Part shown: piece by piece, positions 2,839 to 62,200 of the stretch
How the letters are laid out: the number at the start of each line of letters is the position of its first letter
Numbering within the stretch: position 1 is the stretch's first letter
NCBI GenBank assembly: GCA_023474015.1
Contig: JAMCYN010000001.1
Coordinates: 19,739 to 83,738 of the forward strand
DNA: 64,000 nt
From: Armatimonadota bacterium
GTDB lineage: Bacteria; Armatimonadota; UBA5829
Direction: 5' to 3'
Notes under the pieces: generated by a model
Database searches by the model: none
Seen by the model: only the letters and a program-made list of their open reading frames with translations
Told to the model about the DNA's origin: nothing
Made by a program: the position numbers and the translations under genes

Positions 2839-2895
2839 GGGATTGCAAATCCCTAGATTGCCCTTTCCGTCCCGGATTGCAAATCCGGACGAACG
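2839..2895. repeat. Palindromic repeat, GGATTGCAAATCC family
   Basis: Two stacked palindromes: GGGATTGCAAATCCC, then GTCCCGGATTGCAAATCC followed by GGACGAACG. Essentially the same unit lies inverted at about 44622-44680 downstream of ftsZ, including the flanking CGTTCGTCCGG and the linking ATTGCC(C)TTTCCGTC. It sits just upstream of the aminotransferase start and would form hairpins in the 5' leader of that gene. Confidence 0.85.
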
Positions 2896-3094
2896 AAGTG
2901 TAGCCAACTATTATATCGGCATATTGCGATGTGAGCTTACAACAATTCGCTTGTGAATGGGATGATAATGGCCGATATAAGAATGAGCCGGGCATTTGGA
3001 GGGTGGTCAGGAACGTATATGCGTCCCGGCTGCGTATGGCATAATAGGGATGAGGTTATCTTATTCAGCGGACATTGGAGAGGAGGGCGGAGGT

Positions 3095-3751
3095 TTGACG
3101 ACCCCCGAAGTGATACTCGGTAAGGATGTAACAATTGACGACGCGGTCAAGCTTGGTTATCTGACCGGGCGGAAGATCAAGGATTACACGCTGCGGATAG
3201 GTGACGGCGCCTGTATCAGGTTTGGCACTGTGATCTATTGCGGCACGACTATCGGCAAGGGTCTGGCCACCGGCCATAATGTCACTATCCGTGAAGAGAA
3301 CGAGATCGGCGACAATTTCAACGTCTGGAACTGTACCACCATCGACTACGGCTGCAAGATCGGCAATAACGTCAAGATTCACTGCAATTGCTACGTCGCG
3401 CAGTTCACCGTCGTCGAAGACAACGCATTCATGGCGCCGGGGGTGACCATTGCGAACGATATCCACCCCGGCTGCGATTTCTCGGGTAAGTGCATGAGGG
3501 GGCCTCACATCGAGGAAGGGGTCGAGATCGGTGTTAACGTGACGATTCTCCCGTTCGTGCGGATCGGCGCCCACTCGGTCATCGGGTCGGGCACGGTCAT
3601 CACCAAGGACATTCCTCCGGGTTCGGTTGTGGTCGGCAACCCCGGAAGAGTGATTTGCTCCATACACGATCTCAAATGCCAGTCCGGGTTGACAGAGAGG
3701 CCATACGGGGATATACTCCTTAATGGCTCCGCTGTGCCCCGGCAAGATTAG
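3095..3751 (+). CDS. Left-handed beta-helix (hexapeptide repeat) N-acyltransferase
   Basis: Trimeric acyltransferase of the LbH/WxcM-N and WbpD/WlbB type that transfers an acyl group to an amino sugar. The protein is nearly all hexapeptide repeats (IRFGTVIYCGTTIGKG, IGDNFNVWNCTTIDYG) and ends with the family signature VITKDIPPGSVVVGNPGR. The frame also has ATG codons at 2996 and 3050, but those lie in promoter-like DNA (CATAAT at 3040). The TTG at 3095 has GAGGAGGG 9 bases upstream, so I chose it; this gives 218 residues. It sits 9 bases before the second aminotransferase, whose product amino sugar is the likely substrate. Acyl donor and sugar are inferred from the neighbours. Confidence 0.82.
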   Translation: MTTPEVILGKDVTIDDAVKLGYLTGRKIKDYTLRIGDGACIRFGTVIYCGTTIGKGLATGHNVTIREENEIGDNFNVWNCTTIDYGCKIGNNVKIHCNCYVAQFTVVEDNAFMAPGVTIANDIHPGCDFSGKCMRGPHIEEGVEIGVNVTILPFVRIGAHSVIGSGTVITKDIPPGSVVVGNPGRVICSIHDLKCQSGLTERPYGDILLNGSAVPRQD

Positions 3752-3760
3752 AGGTAGTTA

Positions 3761-4861
3761 ATGGTTCCCCTTATCGATCTAAAAATCCAGCACCGCTCTA
3801 TCGCACCTGAAATCGAGACGGCAATTAAACGCGTCTGTGACAACACAGCTTTTATTCTAAGCGACGAGATGAAGGAGTTCGAGTCGGAGTTCGCGGCATA
3901 CTGCGGCGCGAAGCACGGTGTCGGCGTTGCGAACGGAACCGAGGCTCTGTTTTTAGCCCTGACGGCCATGGGGATCGGCCCCGGCGATGAAGTAATCGTG
4001 CCCACCAACACGTTTATCGCCTCTGCCGCCGTAATCTCCCACGCGGGCGCGACTCCTGTGTTTGTTGACTGCGACCCAGAAACCTACTGCATCGACCCGG
4101 CCAGAGTCGCGAGCGCCATAACACCAAGGACGAAGGCCGTCATACCCGTGCATCTTTATGGGCATTCCGCCGATATGGACGCAATTATGAACATCGCGCG
4201 CGGCAGCGGTATAAAAGTTATCGAAGACTGCGCGCAGGCCCATGGAACGCAGTACAAGGGGCGGCAGGTCGGCTCGATTGGCGACGCCGCCGGGTTTAGT
4301 TTTTATCCCAGCAAAACGCTTGGCGCCTACGGCGATGCGGGTATTGTGCTTACGAACAGCGATGAGATTTCCGAGAAGCTCAAGCTTCTGCGCGACAACG
4401 GACGCACCACGTGGTACGAGCACGCGATCATCGGCTATAATATGCGCCTGGACGGCATCCAGGCCGCCATTCTGAGGGTCAAGCTGAAGCATCTGGACAA
4501 GTGGGTGGACGGCAGGCGGGCTCATGCAGCTCAATATCAGGAAATGCTCTCGGATGTCAGCGGACTTGCGCTACCGGTCGAAAAGCCTTATGCCAAGCAT
4601 TCATACTATGTCTATGTGGTGCGGGTCAAGGACCGCGAGAACGTGATGGCCAGGCTCAAGGAGAAGGGCTGCGGGTGCGGGATTCACTATCCGCTGCCGC
4701 TGCACCTCCAGCCGGCGTTCAGTTTCCTTGGTGGAAAGGCGGGGGACTGCCCCGTCGCCGAGGAGTATGCAAAGCAGATAGTATCGATTCCGATGTTCCC
4801 GGAGCTTACCAGGGAGCAGGTTTCCGAGGCGGCATCGATTATAAGGGAAGTTGTCGGTTGA
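3761..4861 (+). CDS. DegT/DnrJ/EryC1/StrS family sugar aminotransferase (WbpE/WlbC-like)
   Basis: Second PLP sugar transaminase in the cluster, 366 residues. Marks: GVANGTEALFLAL, EVIVPTNTFIASA, HLYGHSADMDA, EDCAQAHGTQ and the PLP lysine in SFYPSKTLGAYGDAG. The nearby Gfo/Idh/MocA dehydrogenase and hexapeptide acyltransferase make up, with this enzyme, the three-step set known for UDP-2,3-diacetamido uronic acid synthesis (WlbA, WlbC/WbpE, WlbB/WbpD). That assignment is by family and context, not proven. GAGGT precedes the ATG. The two aminotransferases in this window are clearly related but have diverged well beyond a recent duplication. Confidence 0.88.
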   Translation: MVPLIDLKIQHRSIAPEIETAIKRVCDNTAFILSDEMKEFESEFAAYCGAKHGVGVANGTEALFLALTAMGIGPGDEVIVPTNTFIASAAVISHAGATPVFVDCDPETYCIDPARVASAITPRTKAVIPVHLYGHSADMDAIMNIARGSGIKVIEDCAQAHGTQYKGRQVGSIGDAAGFSFYPSKTLGAYGDAGIVLTNSDEISEKLKLLRDNGRTTWYEHAIIGYNMRLDGIQAAILRVKLKHLDKWVDGRRAHAAQYQEMLSDVSGLALPVEKPYAKHSYYVYVVRVKDRENVMARLKEKGCGCGIHYPLPLHLQPAFSFLGGKAGDCPVAEEYAKQIVSIPMFPELTREQVSEAASIIREVVG

Positions 4862-4926
4862 CAGTTGTCAGTTGACGGTTGAAGGGAGTATTCCCTTCTC
4901 CAACTGTCAACTGTCAACTGAGAACT
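4858..4926. repeat. Palindromic repeat built from GTTGTCAGTTGAC words
   Basis: The left arm carries degenerate tandem copies of CAGTTGTCAGTTGACGGTTG and the right arm its complement (CAACTGTCAACTGTCAACTG), joined by a core GAAGGGAGTATTCCCTTC. It begins inside the last codons of the aminotransferase. The same arm type recurs at 9343-9403 upstream of valS. Confidence 0.85.
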
Positions 4927-4993
4927 GTTTTTTGAGTCGCCGTAAGAGCGGCCATGCACACCGAGAGGGGTAATGGAGAGAGGTAACCGTGGC

Positions 4994-5695: not shown

Positions 5696-5697
5696 GA

Positions 5698-5782
5698 ACA
5701 GTTACGGGTTATGAGTTGAGAGTTTTCGGGTTGGCGAAGGGACTCTTCCCAACTCGTAACCCGCAACTCGCAAACCTATAAC
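5698..5782. repeat. Palindromic repeat built from GGGTTAC/GAGTTG words
   Basis: Left arm GTTACGGGTTATGAGTTGAG, core TTGGCGAAGGGACTCTTCCC, right arm CAACTCGTAACCCGCAACTC. The same arm vocabulary returns at 28203-28272 and 55574-55643. It fills the gap between the sugar transferase and the dehydrogenase. Confidence 0.85.
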
Positions 5783-5795
5783 TACGGGGGGAGTC

Positions 5796-6806: not shown

Positions 6807-6817
6807 GCTCCAACCTT

Positions 6818-6917
6818 GTCATTCTGAGCCGCAGGCGAAGAATCTGCTTTTTTGCCTTGGTCATAGTGCATACCTTCGTTGCAAAGCAGATTCTTCGTCG
6901 TTCCTCCTCAGAATGAC
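6818..6917. repeat. Long palindrome, GTCATTCTGAGC...GAAGAATCTGC family
   Basis: Left arm TCATTCTGAGCCGCAGGCGA leads into AGAATCTGCTTT. The right arm AAGCAGATTCTTCG leads into CTCAGAATGAC about 100 bases later. A second copy with different loop sequence is at 19971-20063. It lies between convergent genes, where the RNA hairpin could also end transcription from both sides. Confidence 0.85.
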
Positions 6918-6944
6918 AACTTGTGTGACGCTCGGCATGAGATG

Positions 6945-7130: not shown

Positions 7131-7141
7131 CAGCAACTTCT

Positions 7142-8113
7142 TCAAATTACCCCGCTCACGTCCATTCCCTCGAACAGCGCCGTGCTCAGGTATCGCTCGG
7201 AGGCGTCGGGGAAGATGACCACTATCGTTTTGCCCGCGAACTCGTCCAGTCGGGCGATGCGGTCCGCGACCGCCATCGCCGCCCCGCACGATATGCCGAC
7301 CAGTATGCCTTCTTCTTTCGGCAGCCTGCGGGCATACTCGATGGATTCCTCGCTGGTCACGGTCTCGACCCTGTCCACGAGCGAGAGGTCCAGCACGTCC
7401 GGCACGAAGCCCGCGCCTATGCCTTGAATCTTGTGGGGGCCGGGCTTGATCTCCTGGTCCATTATCGTCTGGGTAAGCACCGGCGACTCGACCGGCTCGA
7501 CCGCTATGGATGTGATATGCTTGTCCTTGACGCACTTCATGTAGCGGGATACGCCTGTAATCGTGCCTCCGGTCCCCACACCCGATACAAGCACGTCGAT
7601 TTTGCCGTCGGTGTCGTTCCATATCTCGGGGCCGGTGGTTTCCTCGTGAACAGCGGGGTTGGCGGGGTTATTGAACTGCTGAGGCATGAAATACTTGTCC
7701 GGGTCCATCCCCACCATCTCCTCGGCCCTCATAATCGCGCCCTTCATGCCCTTTGCGCCCTCGGTAAGGATCAGCTTCGCACCCAAGGCCGCGAGCACTT
7801 TTCGGCGCTCGATGCTCATCGTTTCGGGCATGGTGAGCGTGACTGGATAGCCCCTCGCCGCGCCCACGAAAGCCAGCGCGATGCCCGTGTTGCCGCTCGT
7901 CGGCTCGATGATATGCTTGCCTGGGTGGAGATTGCCGCGCACCTCCGCGTCCCATATCATCGCCGCCCCTATCCGGCATTTGACCGAATATGCGGGGTTG
8001 CGGCCCTCGATCTTCGCAAGTACAGTTGCCTTCGCCCCTTGCGTGATGTGGTTGATCTTCACAAGTGGCGTGCGTCCTATGCTGTATGAATTGTCCTCGA
8101 ACCAGTTCGCCAT
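7142..8113 (-). CDS. cysK: Cysteine synthase A (O-acetylserine sulfhydrylase)
   Basis: Makes cysteine from O-acetylserine and sulfide with PLP. The 323-residue protein has the PLP lysine in [19 protein letters not shown], the substrate loop [13 protein letters not shown], and the glycine-rich phosphate loop [11 protein letters not shown], which follow the CysK rather than the CysM pattern. A TTG at 8128 would extend it, but ATG 8113 sits 6 bases after GGAGG and is the better start. It gives the organism a free-sulfide cysteine route next to the protein-thiocarboxylate homocysteine route at 13.5-18.6 kb. An extended -10 promoter lies about 90 bases upstream. Confidence 0.93.
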
Positions 8114-8205
8114 TTCATCCTCCGGCAATCGCTGAGTCTATTTCCTAGTTACCCGTGGGCTGTGTGCGGCAAACTCAGCCTCTCAGCCGCTCAATTAGTC
8201 CAAAC

Positions 8206-8214
8206 ATTATATCA
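8206..8214 (-). promoter_or_regulatory. Extended -10 promoter for cysK
   Basis: On the minus strand the sequence reads TGATATAAT, an exact TGnTATAAT extended -10 element, about 90 bases before the cysK ATG. No good -35 box is seen at 17 bases, as is common for extended -10 promoters. Confidence 0.5.
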
Positions 8215-8244
8215 CTCCCGATCTCGCATCGCGTTGGCAAAGGG

Positions 8245-8347
8245 AAGGAATTTAACCACGAAATAACGAAAAAAAACGAAAGCACGAAAGGGAATGGATG
8301 CCCTTTTCGTGTTTTCGTTCCTTTCGTGCTTTCGTGGTTGATTCCCT
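8245..8347. repeat. Palindromic repeat built from ACGAAAGCACGAAAG words
   Basis: The left arm reads AACCACGAAATAACG then ACGAAAGCACGAAAGGG, and the right arm CCTTTCGTGCTTTCGTGGTT. The core is GGGAATGGATGCCCTTTT. The same words occur at 13455-13488, 30184-30345 and 44690-44725. It is also open in the frame of the NUDIX gene but is upstream of that gene's real start. Confidence 0.85.
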
Positions 8348-9342: not shown

Positions 9343-9403
9343 GTTGTCAGTTGACAGTTGTCGGTTGGGCAAGGGACTGCCTTCAACTGACAACCGTCAA
9401 CTG
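9343..9403. repeat. Palindromic repeat built from GTTGTCAGTTGACAG words
   Basis: Arms GTTGTCAGTTGACAGTTGTC and CAACTGACAACCGTCAACTG with core GGCAAGGGACTGCCTT; second copy of the 4858-4926 type. It sits directly before the valS ribosome site and would form a hairpin in its leader. Confidence 0.85.
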
Positions 9404-13451: not shown

Positions 13452-13454
13452 CAT

Positions 13455-13488
13455 CGCGAAAGCCCGAAAACCCGAAATCCCGAAAGGG
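13455..13488. repeat. Degenerate GCGAAAGCCCGAAAACC repeat (single arm)
   Basis: One arm of the GCGAAAG-type element: GCGAAAGCCCGAAAACCCG continuing AAATCCCGAAAGGGG. No full complementary arm is seen here, so this copy appears solitary or decayed. Confidence 0.6.
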
Positions 13489-14791: not shown

Positions 14792-14885
14792 CCAGCATGC
14801 TGAGCCTGTCGAAGCACGCGGTCGGCTATTGTTGAAGCCTTCGATTAGAACTGGCCGCACCCTTCGACAAGCTCAGGATGCTGGG
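14792..14885. repeat. Palindrome of the CTTCGACAAGCTCAGGATG family
   Basis: Left arm CAGCATGCTGAGCCTGTCGA then AGCACGCGG; right arm CCGCACCCTTCGACAAGC then TCAGGATGCTGGG. This motif is widely dispersed in many bacterial genomes. It fills the gap between metY and the sulfur-carrier gene; a half-copy lies inside murC at 37282. Its translation (AEPVEARG, TLRQAQDAG) produces a false small ORF here. Confidence 0.85.
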
Positions 14886-15968: not shown

Positions 15969-16372
15969 TCGTCATACCACTTAACATATTGAACGATATG
16001 GTGGAGCATGCGAGGGAGCAGGCCCCGCTGGAGGCGTGCGGGCTGCTGGTGGGGCAGAATGCCGAAGTCAAGAAGAGCTATCGTCTGACCAACATGGATG
16101 CAAGCTCCGAGCACTTTAGCCTTGATCCGAAGGAGCAGTTCGCGGTCGTGAAGGAGATCAGGCCAAATGGTTGGGATGTGCTCGCGGTCTACCATTCACA
16201 TCCGGCCACCCCCGCGCGGATGTCGGAGGAGGACCTGCGCCTGGCCCTGGCCCCCGAGATGAGGTATGTGATCGTCTCTCTGATGGACGACGAATGGCCA
16301 AAAGTGAAGAGCTTTACCGTGCGGGATGGTCAGGCGGTGGAAGAGCCCGTATCGACGGAGGAATCGCAATGA
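15965..16372 (+). CDS. hcyD: JAMM/Mec-family metalloprotease (HcyD-like)
   Basis: 135-residue zinc protease of the Mpr1/Pad1 (JAB) fold. The JAMM motif is intact: Glu in PLEACGLLVG and YHSHPATPARMSEEDL with two His, Ser and Asp. Such proteins (Mec in actinobacteria, HcyD in Wolinella) trim the extra residues after Gly-Gly of a sulfur carrier or release the product from it. The GGGAR tail of the carrier encoded two genes upstream is the obvious substrate. The ATG at 15965 overlaps the hcyF stop (ATGA); an earlier in-frame start at 15881 would lie inside hcyF and is unlikely. Confidence 0.87.
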   Translation: MIVIPLNILNDMVEHAREQAPLEACGLLVGQNAEVKKSYRLTNMDASSEHFSLDPKEQFAVVKEIRPNGWDVLAVYHSHPATPARMSEEDLRLALAPEMRYVIVSLMDDEWPKVKSFTVRDGQAVEEPVSTEESQ

Positions 16373-18624
16373 TTGAAGCAACTTATCGAATACCCGAGAG
16401 CGTCTTGGAGGACACCCGCGCGTTTCGCGGCCAGGTGGAGAAGTATCTCGCCGGAGAGACATCGCCGGTGGCCTTTCGCGGCATCCGGGTGCCGATGGGC
16501 ATCTACGAGCAGAGGGAAAACGACACCTATATGGTCCGCGTGCGCGGGGCGGCGGGGCTGTTTCTCGAGCATCAGGCGAAGGTGATTGCCAATCTCGCCG
16601 ATACCTACGGCAACGGCATCGTCCACGTCACTACCCGCCAGGACTTGCAGATACATGGCGTCAGAATCGAGGACACGCCACTTATACTGGACCGGCTGCT
16701 GGAGGTCGGGCTTTCATCGCGCGGCGGGGGCGGGAATACGGTTCGCAACATATCCGCGTGCCCGCATGCCGGGGCCTGCAGCGATGAGGTGTTCGATGTC
16801 ACGCCGTACGCACTTGCCCTTACCGAGTATCTGATACGCGAGCGGGGCAATTTCAATCTTCCGCGCAAGTTTAAGGTGGCGTTCTCAGGCTGCGGCAGGG
16901 ACTGTGGGCTGTGCTCGGTCGCCGACCTGGGGTTCTTCGCGCACGAGCGGGATGGCGCTCCCGGGTTCGCGGTATATGCCGGTGGTGGAATGGGCGCTCA
17001 TTCGGCACTGGGGGTCCTTATTGAAGAGTTTATACCGTCCGACGCCGTATTTGAGGTGGCAGAGGCGGTTAAGAGGCTGTTCGACAGATACGGCGACCGC
17101 GCGGACCGAAACAGAGCTAGGCTGCGGTTTGTGGTTCAGCGGCTTGGTGTGGAGGTATTCAGGCGGGCTTATCGTGACGAACTGGAGCACGTCAGGTTGG
17201 AAGGCATATCGACCCCCGGCATAGACCGCTCCACGGTTCATCGGCGCAATGATGCCAGGCATGCGGTAACGCTGCGGCTCCCGCTCGGCGATATTCCAGC
17301 CCGGCGGCTTGAATTGCTGGCGGACCTGGCTTTTGCTCACGGAGATGGGACGCTTCGCACCACCCAGGAGCAGAACATACAGCTCAGAGGAGTTCCCGAG
17401 GGGAGGCTTCAGGACCTTCATGCGGCTCTCAGGAGTATGGACGAAAGGTACCTCGCGCCCGCATCGATCCGGTGCGTTGCATGCGCGGGGGCATCCACCT
17501 GCAAGCTCGGCCTGTGCCTTTCGAGGGGTCTGGCGGAAGCTCTGGACGCCGAATTGCGCGGGATCAAGCTTCCCCTGGACGCCGTGATTCGCATCAGTGG
17601 CTGCCCCAACTCCTGTGGGCATCATCCCATAGCCGCGCTGGGGCTTTACGGGACCGCCTCACGCGTGAACGGCAGGCTCGTGCCGTTCTATAGGCTCGTG
17701 GCCGGTGGCCGAGTAGCCGAGGGGGACGCGGCGCTTGCTCAGCCGGTGGCGAGAGTGCCCGCAAAGGCCATTCCGGCGATGCTGAAGGAGTTCTGGACCG
17801 CCGCCGCGACCGAGTTCAAGGATGACGAGGCCCTGCACGAACTTATGGACCGCTGGGGTATCGATAAGCTGCGCGAACTGGCCGGAAACTACGAGCAGGT
17901 TCCGTCATACGATGCTGAGCCGGATTACTACCGCGATTTCGGATGCGTAAAGGACTTCTCGCTCGCGGGCAGGGGTCCGGGCGAATGCGGGGCCGGGGTG
18001 ACGGACGTGATCGCGCTTGATATCGACCAGGCCAAGCGCGCGCTTCTGGAGTCGCGGCTGTACGACGCCGTCATCGCCTCGGCTCGGGCGCTGCTGATCA
18101 CTAAGGGTTTGGAACCGCAAAAGGATCGCGAGGTCCTCGCGGCCTTCTCCGAGCATCTGATTGCGCCGGGGTGGGTTGCCAAGCAGACGCAGAGCCTGCT
18201 CGACGCCGCCATGGACCTCAAACTGGGAGACCGTGACGATCTCAACGATCTGCGGGATGGGATCGAGGCGCTGGTGGCGCGAATCGAGGAGCTGTTCCAT
18301 TCCCTGGACTCCAATCTCAACTTCCGGGTGGACTCGGTTGAAGAGTCGGAGTCGGTCGACAGCCTTGTTGGTCGGGGGTTTAGACCCCCGACCAACGAAA
18401 ATATTACCGAACTCGACCTGCGCGGGGTAGCTTGCCCGATGAACTTCGTTCGGGCAAAGATACAGCTCGAGCAGATTGATCCCGGCGCGGTGCTCGATGT
18501 TCTGCTCGATGATGGCGAACCGGTGCGCAACGTTCCGGCAAGTTTCGTCGAGCAGGGGCAGGAAGTGCTGTCTGTCGAGGCCGAGCAGGCGCATTACAGG
18601 GTAAGGGTGAGAAGGGTCGAGTGA
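16369..18624 (+). CDS. Siroheme nitrite/sulfite reductase fused to a helical domain and a C-terminal TusA domain
   Basis: 751 residues, ATGA overlap with hcyD. Residues ~1-530 are two siroheme-reductase half-domains. The second has the usual [4Fe-4S]/siroheme ligands C372-x5-C378 and C412-x3-C416 (CAGASTC, CPNSC). The first also has a full set, C131-x5-C137 (CPHAGAC) and C175-x3-C179 (CGRDC), which is not the standard layout. Residues ~565-655 are helical, HEPN-like (ARALLITKGLEPQ). Residues ~675-751 are a SirA/TusA sulfur-transfer domain with the active CP (LRGVACPMNFVRAKIQLE). Between them lies a stretch written by a palindromic repeat. In this operon it most likely reduces sulfite to sulfide and hands the sulfur to the carrier protein. 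Confidence 0.88.
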   Translation: MIEATYRIPESVLEDTRAFRGQVEKYLAGETSPVAFRGIRVPMGIYEQRENDTYMVRVRGAAGLFLEHQAKVIANLADTYGNGIVHVTTRQDLQIHGVRIEDTPLILDRLLEVGLSSRGGGGNTVRNISACPHAGACSDEVFDVTPYALALTEYLIRERGNFNLPRKFKVAFSGCGRDCGLCSVADLGFFAHERDGAPGFAVYAGGGMGAHSALGVLIEEFIPSDAVFEVAEAVKRLFDRYGDRADRNRARLRFVVQRLGVEVFRRAYRDELEHVRLEGISTPGIDRSTVHRRNDARHAVTLRLPLGDIPARRLELLADLAFAHGDGTLRTTQEQNIQLRGVPEGRLQDLHAALRSMDERYLAPASIRCVACAGASTCKLGLCLSRGLAEALDAELRGIKLPLDAVIRISGCPNSCGHHPIAALGLYGTASRVNGRLVPFYRLVAGGRVAEGDAALAQPVARVPAKAIPAMLKEFWTAAATEFKDDEALHELMDRWGIDKLRELAGNYEQVPSYDAEPDYYRDFGCVKDFSLAGRGPGECGAGVTDVIALDIDQAKRALLESRLYDAVIASARALLITKGLEPQKDREVLAAFSEHLIAPGWVAKQTQSLLDAAMDLKLGDRDDLNDLRDGIEALVARIEELFHSLDSNLNFRVDSVEESESVDSLVGRGFRPPTNENITELDLRGVACPMNFVRAKIQLEQIDPGAVLDVLLDDGEPVRNVPASFVEQGQEVLSVEAEQAHYRVRVRRVE
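18367..18396. repeat. Perfect palindrome GTTGGTCGGGGGT inside the sulfite reductase gene
   Basis: 13-base arms around TTAG, in frame, encoding VGRGFRPPTN in the linker between the helical and TusA domains. Related copies: 50068-50092 and 59112-59142 (both intergenic). Confidence 0.9.
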
Positions 18625-18710
18625 TTGCAGAATGAAGAATGCAGAATGCAGAATGAAGGGACCTCACAACGCAGGTCATTCTGCATTCTGCACTCATCAT
18701 TCTGCATTCC
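18625..18710. repeat. Palindromic repeat built from GCAGAATGCAGAATG words
   Basis: Left arm with tandem words ending GCAGAATGCAGAATGAAGGG, core GGGACCTCACAACGCAGGTC, right arm CATTCTGCATTCTGC. Further copies: 26308-26392, 28593-28678, 34168-34243, 37985-38073, and a variant at 57764-57838. It fills the space after the sulfite reductase stop. Confidence 0.9.
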
Positions 18711-18744
18711 CCGACGCTTTATGAAGGAATTGCGCGCTTGGCCT

Positions 18745-19890: not shown

Positions 19891-19970
19891 GCGGCCTCTT
19901 GAATCACGAAATCAAGTGCAGCCCATCCAGCATGTGGTGCCTGGTTTCTGCACGAAGCCATAAGTCTTTT

Positions 19971-20063
19971 CATTCTGAGCCAAAGGCGAAGAATCTGCTT
20001 TGAACCGTTCGTGGTAGTCCATGCCTTCAGTTCAAAGCAGATGCTTCGCTTCACTCACATGAC
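19971..20063. repeat. Second copy of the CATTCTGAGC...GAAGAATCTGC palindrome
   Basis: Same arms as 6818-6917 (CATTCTGAGCCAAAGGCGAA then GAATCTGCTTTGAA; TTCAAAGCAGATGCTTCG then CTCACATGAC). Lies between the converging DUF4432 and transketolase genes, the same setting as copy one. Confidence 0.8.
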
Positions 20064-20098
20064 AGGATTACAGCGTCCGTGGAGAAACAGGCACGGCG

Positions 20099-23974: not shown

Positions 23975-23990
23975 TACCTCCAACATACAG

Positions 23991-24165
23991 TAGGGGTTAA
24001 GCATTTGCCCTTGGGTTTGATGTGGCTCTCAAATTTCAACGCAAATGCTAAACCCTAACGCCGGGGCGAAGCATTTGCGGCTGGGATTACAGGCTAGATC
24101 AGACACAAGAGCTAGTATATAACCCAAGGCATAATCATAACTGCGGGCAAATGCTTCGCCCCTAC
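23991..24165. repeat. Two adjacent palindromes of the GGGGCGAAGCATTTGC family
   Basis: Palindrome A (23991-24058): TAGGGGTTAAGCATTTGC with GCAAATGCTAAACCCTAA. Palindrome B (24063-24165): CCGGGGCGAAGCATTTGC with GCAAATGCTTCGCCCCTA. B carries an unrelated ~70-base AT-richer insert between its arms. This arm motif is widely dispersed in unrelated bacteria. It ends about 75 bases before the mraZ promoter. Confidence 0.88.
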
Positions 24166-25817: not shown

Positions 25818-25838
25818 AAGCCGGACTGTTGGGATCAA

Positions 25839-25872
25839 TTCTAACATCTAACTTCTAATCTCTAACTTCTAG
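25839..25872. repeat. Tandem CTAACTTCTAATCT words
   Basis: TTCTAACATCTAACTTCTAA followed by TCTCTAACTTCTAG, a one-armed member of the repeat family; the same words occur at about 62168-62200 as the right arm of a palindrome. Confidence 0.7.
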
Positions 25873-28202: not shown

Positions 28203-28272
28203 CGGGAGTTTGAGAGTTTGAGAGTTAGAGAGTCCGGAACCCTCAAACCCTCCAACACTCAAACCCTCAAAC
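28203..28272. repeat. GAGAGTTTGAGAGTT / AACCCTCAAACCCTC palindrome
   Basis: Left arm GGGAGTTTGAGAGTTTGAGA, right arm AACCCTCAAACCCTCCAACA then CTCAAACCCTCAAAC, joined at AGTCCGGAACC. Related words at 5698-5782 and 55574-55643. Confidence 0.85.
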
Positions 28273-28591: not shown

Positions 28592-28592
28592 A

Positions 28593-28678
28593 GTGCAGAA
28601 TGAAGAGTGCAGAATGCAGAATAGCTTGGCGTGCGGGCGCCTTCATTCTGCATTCTACATTCTGCATTCTTCATTTTG
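28593..28678. repeat. TGCAGAATGAAGAGTGCAG-type palindromic repeat
   Basis: Left arm GTGCAGAATGAAGAGTGCAG, right arm CATTCTGCATTCTACATTCT then GCATTCTTCATT. The core differs from other copies (AGCTTGGCGTGCGGGCGCC). Confidence 0.88.
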
Positions 28679-30216: not shown

Positions 30217-30345
30217 GGAACAGGGAACAGGGAATAGGGAACAGAAGGGACCTACCCTTCTCCGTTCGTCCGGGGTTTGAGCCCCGGACACAAGTTCCCC
30301 GGGCTTAAGCCCGTCCCTTCTCTTTCGTTCTTTCGTGATTAAATA
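30184..30345. repeat. Composite repeat: GCGAAAG words, GGGAACA words and two extra palindromes
   Basis: Order: GCGAAAGCGCGAAAGGGCGA (in the murE tail), GGGAACAGGGAACAGGGAAT, core ACAGAAGGGACC, CGTTCGTCCGGGGTTTGAGC with CCCGGAC, CCCGGGCTTAAGCCCG, then CTTTCGTTCTTTCGTGATTA as partial complement of the first part. The CGTTCGTCCGG element also borders the repeats at 2839-2895 and 44579-44730. Confidence 0.85.
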
Positions 30346-34211: not shown

Positions 34212-34243
34212 GTCCCTTCATTCTGCATTCATCATTCTGCATT
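34168..34243. repeat. GCAGAATG-type palindromic repeat overlapping the murD 3' end
   Basis: Left arm holds four tandem GCAGAAT words inside murD; the stop TAG lies in the core (GAGTTAGGTCCCTTC); right arm CATTCTGCATTCATCATTCT. Core GGTCCCTTC is the same as in other copies, inverted. Confidence 0.9.
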
Positions 34244-36612: not shown

Positions 36613-37998
36613 TTGCATTATCATCTAATCGGAATCGGCGGCGCGGGAATGAGCGCAATCGCCCAGATACTTCACGAACGCGGCGAGAGCGTCAGCGGCT
36701 CCGACCGTCAGGAGAACGAAGCCGTCATTCGCCTGCGCGCCGCCGGGGTGAAAGTCGATATCGGCCACTCGGAGGGCAACGTAAATGGCGCGGACGTGGT
36801 GGTCTACACCGCCGCCGTCTCGCAGGACAACCCGGAGCTTGTGGAAGCCCGCCGCCGGGGTATCGAGACCCTCGAGCGCCCCGCGATGCTTGGTCGGATT
36901 ATGGAGCCTTATAAGCACAGAGTGGCAATCTCCGGCACGCACGGCAAGACAACTACGACCTCCATGCTGGGGGTCATTCTCGATCACGCGGGAGTCAACG
37001 CCAGCGCGCTGATCGGCGGCGATGTGAAATCGCTTAACGGCAACGCCGTGCTCGGCTCGGGCGAGATCATCATTACCGAGGCGTGCGAGGCTTTCGCGTC
37101 GTTCCTGCATCTGCATCCGTCAATTGCCGTGATCACGAATATCGACGCCGACCATTTGGATTACTACGGCACTATCGAGCGCGTCGAGGAGACGTTTAAG
37201 CAGTTCGTGAGCCAGGTGGACCCGGACGGCTGCGTCATCGCGTGCTCCGATGACGAGCGCGTGCGCAAGGTGCTGGACGGCCCTTCGACAAGCTCAGGAC
37301 GGCGCGTAATATGGTTCGGATTGACCGGCTCCCCGGACGTTCTTGCGGCGGATGTCGATGTGGCGAAGCCGAATCCGACCTATACGCTGGTGCGTGGGGG
37401 TGAGGCGCTGGGGACGGTCGAGTTGCGGGTTCCCGGCGAGCAGAATGTGGTCGATTCGCTCGCGGCGGCGGCGGTGGCGTTCGAGCTCGGCGTCGGGTTC
37501 GATGATATACGCGACGGCCTCGGTGAGTTCCACGGGGCGGGACGACGGTTTGAGATTCTTTATGATGACGGGCGCGTGATGGTAGTCGATGATTATGCGC
37601 ATCATCCGGCGGAGGTCCAAGCCACCCTTTCCGGCGCGCGCAAAGGCTACGGCAAGCGCATCGTTGCCGTGTTCCAGCCGCATTTATACTCTCGGACGAA
37701 GATATTCACGAACGAGTTCGCCCAGGCGCTCTCGCAGGCCGACGAGGTCATCGTCACTTCGATATATGCTGCCCGCGAGCAGCCCATGGAAGGCGTCACA
37801 GCGGAGGGCATTGTTAATCGCATGAAGTCGGTAGGCTTCGCCAACGCGCGCTACGTCGCCGACAAGGACACCCTTCCCGGAGAATTGGCCGAGCGCATCA
37901 GGCCCGGCGATATGGTCATGGTCATCGGCGCGGGGGATATACGTAAAGTAGGCGAGGAACTGGCGGCGATACTAGACCGAAGGGAGATTGCAGATTGA
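36613..37998 (+). CDS. murC: UDP-MurNAc:L-alanine ligase MurC
   Basis: 461 residues, TTG start with AAGGAC ahead. N-terminal Rossmann loop HLIGIGGAGMSAIAQIL, ATP loop AISGTHGKTTTTSML, ITNIDADHLDYYG, C-terminal VDDYAHHPAEVQATL and FQPHLYSRTK. An 18-base half-copy of the CCTTCGACAAGCTCAGGA element lies in frame at 37282-37299, writing PSTSSG into a surface loop of the central domain (KVLDGPSTSSGRRVIWFG). The gene stays open and all motifs are present, so it is probably functional. Confidence 0.95.
   Translation: MHYHLIGIGGAGMSAIAQILHERGESVSGSDRQENEAVIRLRAAGVKVDIGHSEGNVNGADVVVYTAAVSQDNPELVEARRRGIETLERPAMLGRIMEPYKHRVAISGTHGKTTTTSMLGVILDHAGVNASALIGGDVKSLNGNAVLGSGEIIITEACEAFASFLHLHPSIAVITNIDADHLDYYGTIERVEETFKQFVSQVDPDGCVIACSDDERVRKVLDGPSTSSGRRVIWFGLTGSPDVLAADVDVAKPNPTYTLVRGGEALGTVELRVPGEQNVVDSLAAAAVAFELGVGFDDIRDGLGEFHGAGRRFEILYDDGRVMVVDDYAHHPAEVQATLSGARKGYGKRIVAVFQPHLYSRTKIFTNEFAQALSQADEVIVTSIYAAREQPMEGVTAEGIVNRMKSVGFANARYVADKDTLPGELAERIRPGDMVMVIGAGDIRKVGEELAAILDRREIAD
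37282..37299. repeat. CCTTCGACAAGCTCAGGA element inside murC
   Basis: 18 bases identical to the right arm of the palindrome at 14792-14885; encodes PSTSSG in frame. Confidence 0.85.
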
Positions 37999-38073
37999 TG
38001 ATTGCAGAATGCAGAATGAAGGGCCCCGTTATTGTAGGTCAATCTGCAATCTGCATTCTGCAATCTGCAATTG
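37985..38073. repeat. GCAGATTG/GCAGAATG-type palindromic repeat
   Basis: Left arm GCAGATTGATGATTGCAGAA then TGCAGAATGAAGGG, core GGGCCCCGTTATTGTAGGTC, right arm CAATCTGCAATCTGCATTCT then GCAATCTGCAATTG. Starts in the last murC codons. Confidence 0.9.
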
Positions 38074-38113
38074 TCCTTTCCCAGGATAAATCTTTACTGG
38101 AGGCTGCTTAGAT

Positions 38114-41661: not shown

Positions 41662-42011
41662 TCTGGCTGCCTGTTTTGGGCCTGGTGGTGGGATTTATCG
41701 TATTTTGGCTGCCTGTCAGGCTGCCTTCGGACTGGGCGAGCTATCTGGGCTTGGCGACGCTGGCGGGGCTCGATTCGATATTCGGAGGAATTAGGGCCGG
41801 TATCGAGGGCAAGTTTCACGACGATATCCTGTTCTCGGGATTCATAGTCAATACGCTTTTGGCGGCGCTGCTGGCCTATGTGGGTGATCAGATAGGTGTA
41901 GATTTGTTCCTTGCCGCAGTTGTCGCATTGGGAGGCAGGGTGTTCTTGAACCTGTCGCTGATACGCCGCTACTACCTGACTCAGACGAGCCTGAGCAGGA
42001 AAAGAGAGTAA
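41658..42011 (+). CDS. sbp: Small basic protein Sbp (DUF1290)
   Basis: 117 residues with three membrane spans (LPVLGLVVGFIVFWLPV; DILFSGFIVNTLLAALLAYVGD; LFLAAVVALGGRVFLNLSLI). The stretch YLGLATLAGLDSIFGGIRAG is the DUF1290 signature. Role unknown; the family goes with DUF881 genes next to ftsA/ftsZ. ATGA overlap. Confidence 0.85.
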   Translation: MIWLPVLGLVVGFIVFWLPVRLPSDWASYLGLATLAGLDSIFGGIRAGIEGKFHDDILFSGFIVNTLLAALLAYVGDQIGVDLFLAAVVALGGRVFLNLSLIRRYYLTQTSLSRKRE

Positions 42012-42012: not shown

Positions 42013-42087
42013 AATTTTATATTTTATAGTGGATATTTTATATTGCAGACATTTGCATTATTCATTACAAAATATAAAATATAAATT
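42013..42087. repeat. AT-rich ATATTTTATA palindrome between sbp and ftsA
   Basis: AATTTTATATTTTATAGTGG at the left and ACAAAATATAAAATATAAAT at the right, about 75 bases in all. Its A+T content stands out sharply from the surrounding GC-rich DNA. It has the same two-arm tandem-word design as the other elements. Confidence 0.8.
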
Positions 42088-43477: not shown

Positions 43478-44581
43478 ATGGCGAACGGTAACGGGGACTA
43501 CTACGCAAGGATAAAAGTAATCGGTGTGGGCGGCGGAGGTATGAACGCTGTCAACCGGATGATAGACTCCAATGTATGCGGCGTCGATTTCGTGGCGATG
43601 AACACCGACACCCAGGTGCTAGAGCTTTCGAGCGCGAAAAGCAAGCTCCAGATTGGCGCGAACCTGACCAGGGGCCTGGGGGCCGGGGGCAATCCCGAGA
43701 TGGGCAGGGAATCGGCGGAAGAGAGCCGCCCGGAGATTCGCAGGCTTCTCGAAGGCGCGGATATGGTCTTCATCGCCGCCGGGATGGGCGGCGGCACGGG
43801 GACCGGCGCTGCTCCCGTCATTGCCGAGATGTCCAAGGAGATGGGCGCGCTGACCGTGGCGGTGGTCACCAGGCCGTTCAGTTTCGAGGGCCCGCGGCGG
43901 GCGAGAGTCGCGGATGTGGGCGTTAAGGATCTCAAAGACCGGGTCGATACCCTCATCGTTATTCCCAACGACCGCCTATTGAACGTCGTTGAGAAGAGGG
44001 CGACGCTGAACGATGCGTTCATGGTGGCGGACCAGGTCATCCAGCAGGGCGTGCAGGGCATTTCCGACATTATCACGATCCCTGGTATGATCAACGTCGA
44101 CTTCGCCGATATTAAGGCGATTATGGCCGACCAGGGCACGGCACTTATGGGCATCGGCCACGCGAGCGGCGAGCAGAGAGCGGTTCATGCCGCCGAGATG
44201 GCCTGCGCGAGTCCGCTTCTTGAGACTACCATCGACGGCGCGCGCGGCGTGCTGATCAATGTCACGGGCGGACCCGATCTCACCCTCACCGAGGTCTACG
44301 AGGCCGCCGACATCGTCTACAAGGCCTGCGACTCCGAGAACGTGAATGTAATCTTCGGCACCGTCATCGACCCCAGTATGCAGAACGAGGTCAAGATTAC
44401 GGTCCTTGCGACGGGATTTGACGTGGTGGAAAGACAGCAGCAGGCGGTCGAGACCAGAGCTGCCGTGGTAGCTCACGGCGAATCCGCGCCCCCAAAGCCT
44501 TCCCTGGCGGTTGCCACACATGACGCGGCGCTGATCCCCGAAGGAGAGCTCGATATACCGGCGTTTCTGCGGAGAAGATAG
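43478..44581 (+). CDS. ftsZ: Cell division GTPase FtsZ
   Basis: Tubulin-like ring protein, 367 residues. GTP-binding marks: [27 protein letters not shown], the tubulin loop [20 protein letters not shown], synergy loop [13 protein letters not shown] short linker (~35 residues) leads to the C-terminal peptide [11 protein letters not shown] that binds FtsA. Ribosome site AGAAGGGGG. Last gene of the cluster. Confidence 0.97.
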
Positions 44582-44730
44582 GGAACAGGGAACAGGGAAC
44601 AGGGAACAGAAGGGACCGCGTACGTTCGTCCGGATTTGCAATCCGGGACGGAAAGGCAATCTGGGGATTTGCAATCCCTCCCTTCCCCTTTCGTGCTTTC
44701 GCCCTTTCGGGTTTTCGTGATGAAATTCCC
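44579..44730. repeat. Composite repeat after ftsZ
   Basis: Tandem GGGAACAGGGAACAGGGAAC, core ACAGAAGGGACC, the GGATTTGCAATCC double palindrome (inverted copy of 2839-2895, with CGTTCGTCCGG border), then CTTTCGTGCTTTCGCCCTTT of the GCGAAAG type. Three arm types are chained in one gap. Confidence 0.88.
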
Positions 44731-44768
44731 TTCCGCAATCTTGCACGGAGTCTGCACAGCAGCATAAT

Positions 44769-55016: not shown

Positions 55017-55570
55017 CATTCAGGATCACGTATGCGATTACAATCCTGCTGATGTTCGGCGCGATATGCGTTCTGGAGAACAGCACCGTCAAAGCCAAGC
55101 CACCGGAGCCGGCTGAGCGTGGGGTATCATCGGTATATATGCTCGCCGGGGAGTTCAGGACGGTCTTCGCCAACCTGCTGTGGATAAAGGCGGAGCAGTA
55201 TCACCACGAGTTCCTCCAGCACAACAAGGATTGGGCCAAGAACAAAGAGCTTGTCGGGCTTCTCAATCTGATCACCAACCTCGACCCCCACTTCCCCGAA
55301 GCCTACGCGGTCGGAACATCGATATACGCGGACGGGTTCAATGACAAGAACAGAGCACTGCGCTATCTGATCGAGGGAATACACAACAATCCGAGGTCGT
55401 GGGAGTTGCATAGAATCGCGACGATCATGTACGCCAGGCACTTACATGACCCCCAGCGCGCCCTCTTCCACGCGCGGCTGACGGTGAAGTACTGCGACGA
55501 TCAATGGTACGCGCCAAGCCTGCACAGGCTGCTGCAAACGGTTCAGAGGCTTGCGGACAAGCCGGAGTAG
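55013..55570 (+). CDS. Membrane-anchored TPR-like protein
   Basis: 185 residues. Signal or anchor helix (residues 4-21, RITYAITILLMFGAICVL), then helical repeats that read like tetratricopeptide units: NLLWIKAEQYHHEFLQHNKD, LNLITNLDPHFPEAYAVGTS, RALRYLIEGIHNNPRSWELH, IMYARHLHDPQRALFHARLT. Likely an extracytoplasmic scaffold for the ABC system. Function unknown. Confidence 0.72.
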   Translation: MTFRITYAITILLMFGAICVLENSTVKAKPPEPAERGVSSVYMLAGEFRTVFANLLWIKAEQYHHEFLQHNKDWAKNKELVGLLNLITNLDPHFPEAYAVGTSIYADGFNDKNRALRYLIEGIHNNPRSWELHRIATIMYARHLHDPQRALFHARLTVKYCDDQWYAPSLHRLLQTVQRLADKPE

Positions 55571-55573
55571 TTC

Positions 55574-55643
55574 GCGGGTTACGGGTTTACGGGTTATGAG
55601 TTTGGAACCCGCCAACCCGCCAACCCGCAAACTCGCAAACTCC
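55574..55643. repeat. GCGGGTTACGGGTTTACGGG palindrome
   Basis: Left arm GCGGGTTACGGGTTTACGGG then TTATGAGTTTGG; right arm AACCCGCCAACCCGCCAACC then CGCAAACTCGCAAACTCC. Joins the converging TPR and LPP20-like genes; reaches the latter's stop codon. Confidence 0.88.
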
Positions 55644-60309: not shown

Positions 60310-60324
60310 GTTGGTCTCCTTTTC

Positions 60325-60420: not shown

Positions 60421-60427
60421 AAAATAA

Positions 60428-60463
60428 GCCCCTCGTCTCTGCATGCATACAGAGACGAGGGGC
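60428..60463 (-). terminator. T-box regulated terminator of leuA
   Basis: GCCCCTCGTCTCTG pairs with CAGAGACGAGGGGC around an 8-base loop, followed on the minus strand by TTATTTT. It directly follows the T-box sequence. Confidence 0.9.
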
Positions 60464-60771
60464 TATAATCCTCGCGGTACCACTCTGCTTGACCGGCGCT
60501 CACGCGCTCGGCCCGCTTATCCGCCACGGCCCCGACTTACTCGAAGCGATGGCGTCTTCCTTGTAACGGTGGAAGTTTCCGTCCCAGTCTAATCTCGAAA
60601 GTTCGGCAGTTCGGCAGTCCGAAGGTCCGAATGTCGATTTCGGTGGGCGACTCAGGAGGGAGTTCGGGAGGACCCTGTCGACGCCGGTTTCCAGCGACCC
60701 GGCTCTCTGGTAGTCCGGTTTTCCACCTTACTAGTCTCCATCATAGTCTTTGGTGCGATATTTGTTTGTGT
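60428..60771 (-). promoter_or_regulatory. Leucine T-box riboswitch upstream of leuA
   Basis: Minus-strand leader of ~340 bases. Stem I has the distal-loop elements AGAGAGCCGGG and GCTGGAAACCGGC. The specifier loop reads GAACTCCCTCCTGAGTCG, giving specifier CTC (Leu) at 60660-60662. The antiterminator holds the T-box AGAGTGGTACCGCG at 60473-60486, followed by the terminator. Uncharged tRNA-Leu would stabilise the antiterminator and turn leuA on. This is the main visible control, since the enzyme lacks its leucine-binding domain. Confidence 0.92.
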
Positions 60772-60777
60772 AGTCTA

Positions 60778-60806
60778 ATTATGGTCAGAATTCGCCTGTC
60801 TGTCAA
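60778..60806 (-). promoter_or_regulatory. Promoter of the leuA T-box leader
   Basis: On the minus strand TTGACA, 17 bases, CATAAT. The same -35/-10 pair and spacing as the metY promoter at 13319-13347. Confidence 0.75.
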
Positions 60807-60810
60807 GACA

Positions 60811-60864
60811 AAAATGAGGATGGCCCCACTTGTTGAAGATAATGAATGGGCCATCCTCGTTTTT
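60811..60864. terminator. Two-way terminator hairpin between divergent promoters
   Basis: GAGGATGGCC (60816) pairs with GGCCATCCTC (60849), with A-rich sequence before and T-rich after, so it is terminator-like on both strands. It lies between the leuA promoter and the pilT promoter and may insulate them. Confidence 0.6.
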
Positions 60865-60869
60865 GAGCA

Positions 60870-60898
60870 TTGACAGCCTGTAACTTTAGTGGTAAGTT
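60870..60898 (+). promoter_or_regulatory. Probable pilT promoter
   Basis: TTGACA, 17 bases, TAAGTT; predicted start about 50 bases before the ATG at 60953. Confidence 0.5.
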
Positions 60899-60952
60899 GA
60901 GCTTAGGTTGTAGCTGCACCTGAGGACAGTCAGATACTAGGGGGTGGGAACG

Positions 60953-62113
60953 ATGTTGGACATCAGTGTCCTTCTAGATGAGATTGTCAACCGGGACGGG
61001 TCAGACCTGCATCTTGTGGTCGGCGACCCCCCTACCGTGCGAGTTCACGGGCATTTGGTAAGGCTCGAGGAATACGGCGAATTGACTGACGAGGTCACGC
61101 AGGACCTCACCAGACAGATCATCCCGGAGCGCTGCGTGAAAGAGCTCCAGGATGAACGAGGTGTCGACTTCGGCTTCGCCTACGGCGACAAGGCGCGTTT
61201 CAGGGTGGCGGTCTTCTACCAGAAATACACGATGGCCCTCAACCTGAGACTGATCCCCTACAAGATCCGCTCGTTCGAAGAACTCGGCCTTGATCAGCAT
61301 GTGCAGAAACTATGCCATGCTCCCAGGGGCCTGGTGCTGGTGACCGGCCCGACCGGCAGCGGCAAGACCACCACGCTGGCCACGATGATCGACTACATCA
61401 ACCGCAATCGCGACTGCCACATCATTACCATCGAGGACCCCATCGAGTACCACCACTCCCACAAGAAATCCATCATCAGCCAGAGGCAGGTGGGCGACGA
61501 CGTCCCCACGTTCGATGTAGGCGTGATTAAGGCGCTCAGGCAGGACCCGGATGTGATCCTCGTCGGCGAGATGCGTGACCTCAAGACCATCTCGGCGGCG
61601 GTGCGCGCGGCGGAGACGGGCCACCTCGTGTTCTCGACCCTGCACACCACCGGCGCGGTGCGGACCGTGGACCGGGTCGTGGATGTGTTCCCATTCGACC
61701 AGCAGGAGCAGATTCGATCCCAGCTCGGTGGCAACCTGCTGGCGGTCATCTCACAGCTTCTGCTGCCGACACCCGACGGCACGGGACGACACTCGGTCTA
61801 CGAGATTATGATCTGCACACCGGCGATCCAGCACATGATACGCGACCGCAAGACCCACTCCATCTTCTCGGCGATCCAGACCGGCCAGCAGTTCGGCATG
61901 AAAACCCTCGACGATTCGCTTCTGGCGAACTACCGCAGGGGTCTGCTTGCCAGGGAGGAGATGCTCCGCGTTGCCGAGCATCCGGGCGATGTTCTGCAAA
62001 AGTTGGGCGAGGCGGTGCCGCAGCACATGGCGGTGCACAGCCAGCCGCAGAATAGCAGCCAGCCACAGCAGCGGCCGCCCTATCCTGGCCCTCAGCAGAA
62101 CGCTCGGCAGTAA
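60953..62113 (+). CDS. pilT: PilT-type twitching motility ATPase
   Basis: Retracts type IV pili. 386 residues: N-terminal PAS-like domain (LDEIVNRDGSDLHLVVGDPP), Walker A VTGPTGSGKTTTLATMIDYI, Asp box IITIEDPIEYHHSH, Walker B VIKALRQDPDVILVGEMRD, His box HLVFSTLHTTGAVRTVDR. The PilT-specific AIRNLIRE-type motif is not clear. The C-terminus is extended by a Gln/Pro-rich tail. ATG 60953 follows GGGGGTGG; a GTG at 60944 overlaps that site. No other pilus genes are in the window. Confidence 0.92.
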   Translation: MLDISVLLDEIVNRDGSDLHLVVGDPPTVRVHGHLVRLEEYGELTDEVTQDLTRQIIPERCVKELQDERGVDFGFAYGDKARFRVAVFYQKYTMALNLRLIPYKIRSFEELGLDQHVQKLCHAPRGLVLVTGPTGSGKTTTLATMIDYINRNRDCHIITIEDPIEYHHSHKKSIISQRQVGDDVPTFDVGVIKALRQDPDVILVGEMRDLKTISAAVRAAETGHLVFSTLHTTGAVRTVDRVVDVFPFDQQEQIRSQLGGNLLAVISQLLLPTPDGTGRHSVYEIMICTPAIQHMIRDRKTHSIFSAIQTGQQFGMKTLDDSLLANYRRGLLAREEMLRVAEHPGDVLQKLGEAVPQHMAVHSQPQNSSQPQQRPPYPGPQQNARQ

Positions 62114-62145
62114 GGCAGTCGGAAATTGTTGGAAAGTTCGTCGGT

Positions 62146-62200
62146 AAAGAGGTTCAGGTGTTGGAGTTCTAACCTCTAACCTCCAACCTCTAACTTCTAA
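62146..62200. repeat. GAGGTTCAGGTGTTGGAG / CTAACCTCTAACCTCC palindrome
   Basis: Left arm AGAGGTTCAGGTGTTGGAGT, right arm CTAACCTCTAACCTCCAACC then TCTAACTTCTA. It ends just before the ribosome site of the ankyrin gene. Words shared with 25839-25872. Confidence 0.75.

Follow-up and report, generated by a model that had tools for sequence, protein, structure and literature searches.

A 64,000-nt stretch of the Armatimonadota contig JAMCYN010000001.1 (positions 19,739 to 83,738), hereafter the window, carries hairpins in its gene gaps whose inverted arms consist of tandem copies of a 7-8 nt word and point inwards. The same architecture is found in other phyla around genes of two families, the four-helix-bundle (4HB) family PF05635 and the GxxExxY family PF13366. 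We think it probable, with some reserve, that the window hairpins are non-autonomous, gene-less copies of this 4HB/GxxExxY class of word-palindromes, small dispersed elements that are very widespread. Their membership of the class is likely and is based on the architecture together with similar words, not on a full copy. Read as stripped-down copies, such hairpins would likely give an origin to the seven-letter repeats of bacteria that have long been unexplained.

In the window 48 main open reading frames (ORFs) were hand-picked and 34 gaps tested; two starts and one end were adjusted by hand to place the arrays at 8242, 9343 and 34166 within gaps. An inverted repeat was called significant when it scored more than 2 above the best of 40 first-order Markov shuffles. 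Twenty of the 34 gaps contain such a repeat, and in 11 of the 20 (palindromes at 4849, 5700, 8242, 9348, 18612, 26292, 28596, 34173, 37987, 42014 and 55569) the arms show a self-identity of 0.51-0.95 at lag 7 or 8. A twelfth tandem-word palindrome (28203-28272) lies in a gap where a different palindrome scored higher, and six further arrays have a single clear arm (13453, 25836, 30180/30209, 44573/44686, 60600 and 62167). By lag, eight window arrays fall at 7 and five at 8, with none at lags 5, 6 or 9-12. The nine remaining significant inverted repeats (6816, 14792, 19937, 23990, 36473, 43359, 49413, 57762 and 60800) have no tandem-word arms, and the word class therefore comprises about 18 places in the window. 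The initial annotation had counted at least 20 gaps with arms of this kind.

RNA folding of the 12 tandem-word palindromes gave z values of -4.1 to -10.7, far stabler than the shuffle average. With 200 shuffles per element, none folded as well for 11 of the 12, and one did for the element at 42010. The inverted tandem-word arms first noticed in the sequence are real. The hairpins are located in gaps between mostly co-directional protein genes, chiefly in the mur/fts cluster (24-45 kb). Of the MurC matches listed, those near the top that have an organism name are from Armatimonadota, with 68-72% identity. Eight of the 11 palindromes have a first arm whose start lies in the span from 13 nt upstream to 20 nt downstream of the preceding stop codon, the exceptions being those at 8242, 28596 and 34173, where in the last case an ORF runs into the arm. 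The places are as follows (strand given where one is assigned; z, folding z value).

4845-4926: GTTGACA/GTTGTCA palindrome, apex AAGGGAGTATTCCCTT; z -7.4; first arm contains the stop codon of ORF 3761-4861
5700-5768: GGGTTAC-type palindrome, apex GAAGGGAC; z -4.9; starts 4 nt past a stop codon
8242-8351: GCACGAAA palindrome, period 8; z -9.3; similar to some GxxExxY arms of other genomes
9343-9403: GTTGACA/GTTGTCA palindrome, apex AAGGGAC; z -5.0
13453-13486: CGAAAGCC array, period 8, one arm; from the lag scan
18618-18715, plus strand: TGCAGAA palindrome with AAGGGACCTCACAA core; z -10.7; at the stop codon of ORF 16171-18624
25836-25871: TTCTAAC array, one arm, directly past a stop codon
26292-26399, plus strand: TGCAGAA palindrome with AAGGGACCTCACAA core, enclosed by an outer GGGAA..TTCCC pair; z -6.3
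28203-28272: GAGTTTGA palindrome, period 8, immediately past a stop codon; z -5.0
28592-28678, plus strand: TGCAGAA palindrome with diverged core; z -6.7
30180-30330: composite of a GCGAAAG array, a GGGAACA array from the stop codon of ORF 28717-30216, a GAAGGGACC core, a nested CGTTCGTCCGG repeat and a TTTCGTTCTTTCGTG arm
34166-34243, minus strand: TGCAGAA palindrome, core reversed; z -6.0; ORF 32742-34211 extends into it
37980-38078, plus strand: TGCAGAA palindrome with an outer AAGGGA..TCCTTT pair; z -6.0
42014-42080: ATTTTAT palindrome, 2 nt past a stop codon; z -4.1
44573-44733: GGGAACA array from the ftsZ stop codon, GAAGGGACC core, nested CGTTCGTCCGG repeat and TTTCGTGCTTTCG arm
55569-55633: GGGTTGGC palindrome, period 8; z -4.4
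60600-60631: AGTTCGGC array, period 8, one arm; from the lag scan
62167-62201: TTCTAACC array, one arm; from the lag scan

The gene-bearing counterparts were found through the mur cluster. Eighty listed MurC loci from various phyla were screened for arrays, with no Armatimonadota among the matches listed. One of the 80, L030 from the Thermoflexales genome G001, has several arrays of the same kind in its mur operon, with words that differ from those of the window; L033, L011 and L034 have one array each. At L108, in a relative of G001, a palindrome encloses a gene matching PF13366, and therefore PF13366 and PF05635 genes were examined. The latter is the four-helix-bundle family of the intervening sequences (IVSs) of 23S rRNA. 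To score arms, the 350 nt upstream of a gene were aligned to the reverse complement of the 350 nt downstream, and a gene was called armed at a score of at least 30, a threshold chosen after the first scores were known, with random and shifted-window controls made later. The PF05635 loci examined were 50 of 60, 29 of 38 (the weak L222 omitted), 12 of 25 plasmid records and, from larger lists with far more than 100 entries, 29 new ones and 50. Those of PF13366 were 22 of 27 in a first list (L124, L125 and L130-L132, which are weak, partial or tandem, were omitted) and 30 of 58 in a second. Loci with too little flank were dropped (2 of 22 and 2 of 30 for PF13366; 1 of 79 chromosomal 4HB loci).

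Inverted word arms enclose 155 of the 203 4HB genes. By set, the armed share is 57 of 78 for the chromosomal loci, 10 of 12 for cyanobacterial plasmids, 19 of 29 for the L020 phylum (Elusimicrobiota according to the NCBI taxonomy), 26 of 34 for viral contigs (21 of 25 once duplicates are removed) and 43 of 50 for the Xanthomonas massiliensis family. Among the GxxExxY genes 28 of 48 are armed (13 of 20 in the first set, 15 of 28 in the second). The same threshold is reached by 22 of 2000 random 315-nt windows and by 2 of 274 windows moved 1000 nt within the same loci. Cross-pairs of unlike loci reach it in 25/1560 chromosomal, 15/132 plasmid, 20/336 and 8/336 GxxExxY (first and second set), 3/435 L020-phylum, 21/300 viral and 122/360 Xanthomonas-family cases; the high rates are taken to reflect words common to several loci. 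The dominant period of 112 armed 4HB loci is 7 in 78, 8 in 18 and 9 in one, with none clear in 15. The arms are directed inwards. Counting the two gene families together, 114 of 140 armed loci have a purine-rich inward strand. In many of the loci inspected, the stop codon marks the beginning of the 3′ arm, while the 5′ arm finishes near the start codon. Dozens of different words recur in this one architecture across other genomes, which supports the earlier proposal of one kind of element with interchangeable words rather than several unrelated ordinary transposons. An associated gene in a RAYT-like position is present in other genomes; the initial annotation had suggested looking for a RAYT-like or other transposase gene.

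Some of these loci show further features. On two cyanobacterial plasmids (loci L198 and L200), 4HB elements with unrelated words fill the same cas6-cas4 gap, and at L195 a 4HB gene (arm score 29) lies between cas10 and a cmr3-family gene. At L030 21200-21400 and L100 2740-2893, GxxExxY-style ACACGAAG palindromes have a TTAATTG-like array in the loop, so that element types are nested.

How gene-less forms relate to gene-bearing ones can be followed in orthologous gaps. In relatives of G001 (7-30% MurC divergence), the mur-operon gaps hold other word-palindromes, or nothing, at the same place. Two adjacent operon gaps were traced by eye through one Thermoflexales family (12 and 10 genomes). In the first gap, three genomes have an empty spacer (11-14 nt) and two a full 4HB element whose arms are of GCAGGTC. 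Two more retain the arms, but the gene between them is internally deleted or decayed. A gene-less palindrome with a similar word and a palindrome with a different word are found in one genome each, and the remaining three have a single arm plus other insertions. The second gap contains full elements in two genomes, a decayed one in another, and gene-less palindromes that bring in three further words; there are also two other palindromes, a single arm accompanied by another insertion, and one genome in which the gap is nearly empty. Gene-less forms can therefore arise via internal deletion, and different elements have occupied the gaps; the comparison of orthologous gaps proposed at the outset gave, in these other genomes, one word-palindrome or another per gap. 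Other phyla thus show elements that are present or absent in orthologous gaps, internally deleted or nested, and gene and arms that occur together at different sites. The empty sites of the two Thermoflexales gaps, as read by eye, are too diverged for a target-site duplication to be called.

Within G001 itself, 15 of 19 gene-less arrays carry words of the genome's own 10 armed genes (arm score at least 28), as against a mean of 1.9 and a maximum of 6 in 500 draws from other phyla, a null of incompletely controlled composition that takes some weight from the comparison. G013, with 90% MurC identity to G001, has one period-7 array in 160 kb vs. 14 in 200 kb in G001, and no PF05635 or PF13366 match was found in it.

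The word also goes with the protein lineage. Word sharing among 66 armed 4HB loci increases with protein identity: it is 0.02 under 35%, 0.34 at 70-85% and 0.58 over 85%. At 40-90% identity it beats 2000 of 2000 label permutations, a permutation that ignores relatedness. Flanks are common to 27 of the 43 4HB pairs that are at least 70% identical, so that much of the sharing is descent at the same site, and common descent alone could produce the correlation between word and protein, a point that tells against our reading. The other 16 pairs have no flank match; L179 and L180, for example, are 98% identical genes with one word at two different sites of G014. Because of such pairs, the data support gene and arms moving as a unit, which falls short of proving that the protein reads the word.

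A prediction fixed beforehand concerned Xanthomonas. The available text of PMC4692102 describes Xanthomonas heptamers GGGAATC/GGGANTN that are close to stop codons and generally unassociated with mobile elements, and convergent heptamer pairs, 70 and 75 in two Xanthomonas genomes. We predicted that PF05635 genes of the Xanthomonas family would lie between GGGANTN-like arms. No PF05635 gene was found in the first four gammaproteobacterial/betaproteobacterial genomes tried (L052, L069, L072 and L061). In the family of X. massiliensis the gene is present in 126 of 297 genomes, and among 50 4HB loci of this family at least two inward GGGANT units stand on both sides in 29, and at least two inward GGGANY units in 41. 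The controls for GGGANT gave 9 of 153 at other 4HB loci and 0 of 50 in the outward orientation. The prediction of GGGANTN-like arms at 4HB genes thus largely held.

For the window, inward-pointing inverted arms of tandem 7-8 nt words are the architecture of the class, and the features shared apart from the gene are tandem heptamers, inward pairs, operon placement at stop codons and dispersed copies of the same word. Some words are also close to those of gene-bearing elements. GGGAACA is mixed with GGTGACA in the 4HB arms at L200 (a plasmid of Anabaena sp. 90), and near-window words are found in 4HB arms at L458 (GGAAACA/GGGAACA) and L440 (GTTGCCA/GTTGTCA). The CACGAAA/GCGAAAG words (8242 and 30180) resemble some GxxExxY arms of other genomes.

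Several observations weigh against this assignment. Neither a PF05635 nor a PF13366 gene is present in the 64-kb window (best E 1.9 and 6.7), and its elements are therefore gene-less. No window word was found as the main word of 4HB arms; L200, L440 and L458 offer matches that are mixed or differ by one letter, and because these are not clean, our confidence in the reading is restrained. No TGCAGAA was found beside a 4HB gene in the genomes of one phylum and the viral stretches examined. Three window words were matched by 156 viral stretches, of which 126 were searched (80 of 110 for GGGAACA), with a 4HB gene in two, both with other arms. Arms at threshold are absent from 48 of 203 4HB and 20 of 48 GxxExxY genes, just 4 of 50 Xanthomonas-family loci have two or more exact GGGAATC copies in their flanks, and nowhere did the analysis catch a transposition, a target duplication or a junction. 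Nor does the proposed class account for the AAGGGAC core that different words of this genome have in common.

Regarding this core, GAAGGGAC occurs seven times in the window against about three expected, each time inside an element, and adjoins the apex in six of the seven; the seventh (30313) is on the far side of the composite element 30180-30330. The number of AAGGGAC itself is not enriched (10 vs. about 9.6 expected), but eight of the ten lie inside elements. The core shared between arm types, as claimed initially, is real. A single sequence underlies the five TGCAGAA elements, which align with their loops included; four have an AAGGG(A/C)CC-type loop, and one of these four sits in reversed orientation. 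Such homology between dispersed copies does not support the suggestion of one process making hairpins from different seeds, and elsewhere words tend to follow particular gene-bearing elements. The initial annotation had named a separate, complete mobile element for each arm type as a finding that would refute its reading. This is partly what was found, in that words tend to go with particular gene-bearing elements, but all those elements are of one architecture, a 4HB or GxxExxY gene between word arms.

The CGTTCGTCCGG sequence at 30255 and 44625, formerly regarded as a shared border, seems to be part of a palindromic repeat in its own right that is nested in the element loops. Palindromic repeats similar to CGTTCGTCCGG / ATTTGCAATCCGG occur at 2873-2895, 30255-30300 and 44625-44690, the last two being nested in loops of word elements, and look like a different small repeat family.

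TGCAGAA had a one-mismatch match in one of 340 genomes of one phylum, where the array stands alone in the part of the locus inspected by eye. The exact TGCAGAA-plus-core pattern had no match in the contigs of other genomes scanned. A first pattern scan of viral contigs gave two matches, which were taken as chance within one phage-contig gene region. The IMG/VR contigs L303 (5380-10040) and L310 have intergenic TGCAGAA palindromes with cores such as AAAGACTTTTG and not AAGGGACC; in L303 an HK97 gp10-like gene (7617-8342) lies near them.

A full element, in our reading, is a palindrome of inward tandem-word arms with one small gene in the loop. This is either a PF05635 4HB gene, whose word usually has 7 and occasionally 8 nt, or a GxxExxY/PDDEXK_3 gene, whose words of about 8-10 nt are less regular. 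The protein would presumably bind its own word array and mobilize gene-bearing and gene-less copies, as RAYTs supposedly do for REPs (repetitive extragenic palindromes). Insertions might survive mainly beside stop codons, where a transcribed hairpin would do little harm; the adjacency could reflect target choice or survival. We know of no catalytic motif in the 4HB family, and our guess for this type is that the chemistry is left to a borrowed enzyme; this may be a reverse transcriptase, given that the 4HB protein is distantly related to Avd, the cofactor of diversity-generating retroelements (DGRs). Avd is a four-helix bundle that acts with the DGR reverse transcriptase. One 4HB element protein matches PDB 2gsc, and two of three element proteins scanned match Avd weakly (NF033474, E about 2e-6; PF22296, E 1e-5 and 6e-4), the similarity falling below curated cut-offs. 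A route through RNA and reverse transcriptase is thus thinkable for 4HB elements. For the GxxExxY type, the protein's own nuclease fold may act.

In its widest form, our proposal is that PF05635 and GxxExxY are two large word-reading families driving the same style of selfish element, each lineage with its own word, that heptamer repeats (STRRs, GGGAATC, the hairpins of 23S rRNA IVSs and those of the window) are the arms or debris of such elements, and that the 4HB type perhaps spreads via an RNA hairpin passed to a reverse transcriptase, much as its relative Avd operates in DGRs. We offer this tentatively, with rather more doubt than belief.

The placement of the hairpins in operon gaps beside stop codons and their strong RNA folding would also suit selected host signals for regulation or RNA processing (attenuators, RNase III sites or mRNA stabilizers), with the 4HB protein as a trans-acting regulator rather than a mobilizer; moreover, hairpins of 23S rRNA IVSs are RNase III targets according to the available text of PMC4990558. 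In relatives, however, the corresponding gaps are empty or unrelated, the internally deleted genes and nested insertions resemble decay, and TGCAGAA palindromes are also intergenic in the phage-like contig L303. We consider host signals improbable for these reasons.

Slightly less credible still is that an ordinary transposase elsewhere moves the palindromes, as miniature inverted-repeat elements of an insertion-sequence family or in a RAYT/REP system, and that 4HB and GxxExxY genes are passengers landing in such gaps. The resemblance of the architecture to REP and RAYT (PMC2817692, available part) speaks for it. However, the genes are inside the arms, with the stop codon abutting the 3′ arm in many of the loci inspected, and related proteins carry related words, whereas a generic passenger is not expected to come with its own word. 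The least probable of the alternatives is local replication slippage at small quasi-palindromes, with period 7 as a polymerase property, template switching to invert the arms and no element or protein involved; it accords with arm lengths that vary in word units, but slippage alone was rejected, because same-word copies are homologous at distant sites with their loops, orthologous gaps either have a whole palindrome or lack it, the words in G001 match those of its own gene-bearing elements, and the association of arms with two gene families greatly exceeds that in the controls.

Among known systems, IVSs with S23p ORFs are the closest relatives of the word elements. The accessible text of PMC4990558 describes 23S rRNA IVSs with inverted ends and an S23p/PF05635 ORF, in one case with tandem heptamers before the ORF; it calls the IVS a selfish element, proposed to be mobile or a remnant of transposition, and draws no link to genome-wide heptamer repeats. 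The likeness of the gene-bearing elements lies in the PF05635 family, the terminal inverted repeats and, at most loci, heptamers at the ORF. Unlike IVSs, which lie within 23S rRNA, the elements here are in gene gaps and have many words, and the window copies are gene-less. A 23S rRNA location was rejected, as none of 40 gene-bearing loci checked is in rRNA and the window sites are between protein genes.

REP/RAYT is the closest analogue, with intergenic palindromes and a gene flanked by inverted copies. PMC2817692, in the part available, describes intergenic palindromes, a gene between two inverted copies, coevolution of gene and palindrome, and a copy number that follows the gene. RAYTs are Y1 transposases, whereas the elements here have a 4HB or GxxExxY protein and tandem-word arms. 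The GTAG/CGTC tag of REP elements (PMC3733652, excerpt) was not found by eye at the stem ends of the 12 folded window elements. A general Pfam scan found no Y1 transposase among 30 window ORFs, no Y1-directed search having been made.

Heptamer repeats are already known (PMC4679880 and PMC6344855), and according to the latter, the SPADE survey, clear clues to their function are lacking. Repeat-built hairpins are also described in the P6b region of Nostoc trnL (PMC4476775, in part). The cyanobacterial STRRs are tandem heptamer repeats. Like the window arrays, these STRRs, the Xanthomonas GGGAATC, the Beggiatoaceae TAACTGA and the repeats of the SPADE survey are intergenic tandem heptamers, often near stop or start codons. 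In the available parts of the reports they are described without a partner gene, whereas here such words are the arms of gene-bearing elements. A literature search over titles and abstract openings, with few subscription journals covered, found no paper that connects PF05635 or GxxExxY genes outside rRNA with arms of heptamers, and no explained role for non-rRNA PF05635 or GxxExxY genes; PMC8700078 and PMC8934634, in their available text, merely mention such genes. Linking words and genes makes both puzzles testable, since the gene predicts the word and the word predicts the gene. If the proteins do read words, they would form a large natural set of sequence readers, and the elements would be a mobile-element class without a known transposase.

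Word repeats may hinder assembly. The murC contigs of G008, G012, G014 and G015 terminate within about 800 nt of murC, and in G008 a word array is found at such a contig end (L103 200-280).

Among the inverted repeats of the window without tandem words, 6816-6919 and 19937-20094 are two copies of an inverted repeat CATTCTGAGC ... GCGAAGAATCTGCTTT and apparently belong to a separate dispersed family. Those at 14792-14884 and 23990-24165 are inverted repeats CAGCATGCTGAGCCTGTCGAAG and GTAGGGGCGAAGCATTTGCCC, which are presumably widespread in environmental genomes.

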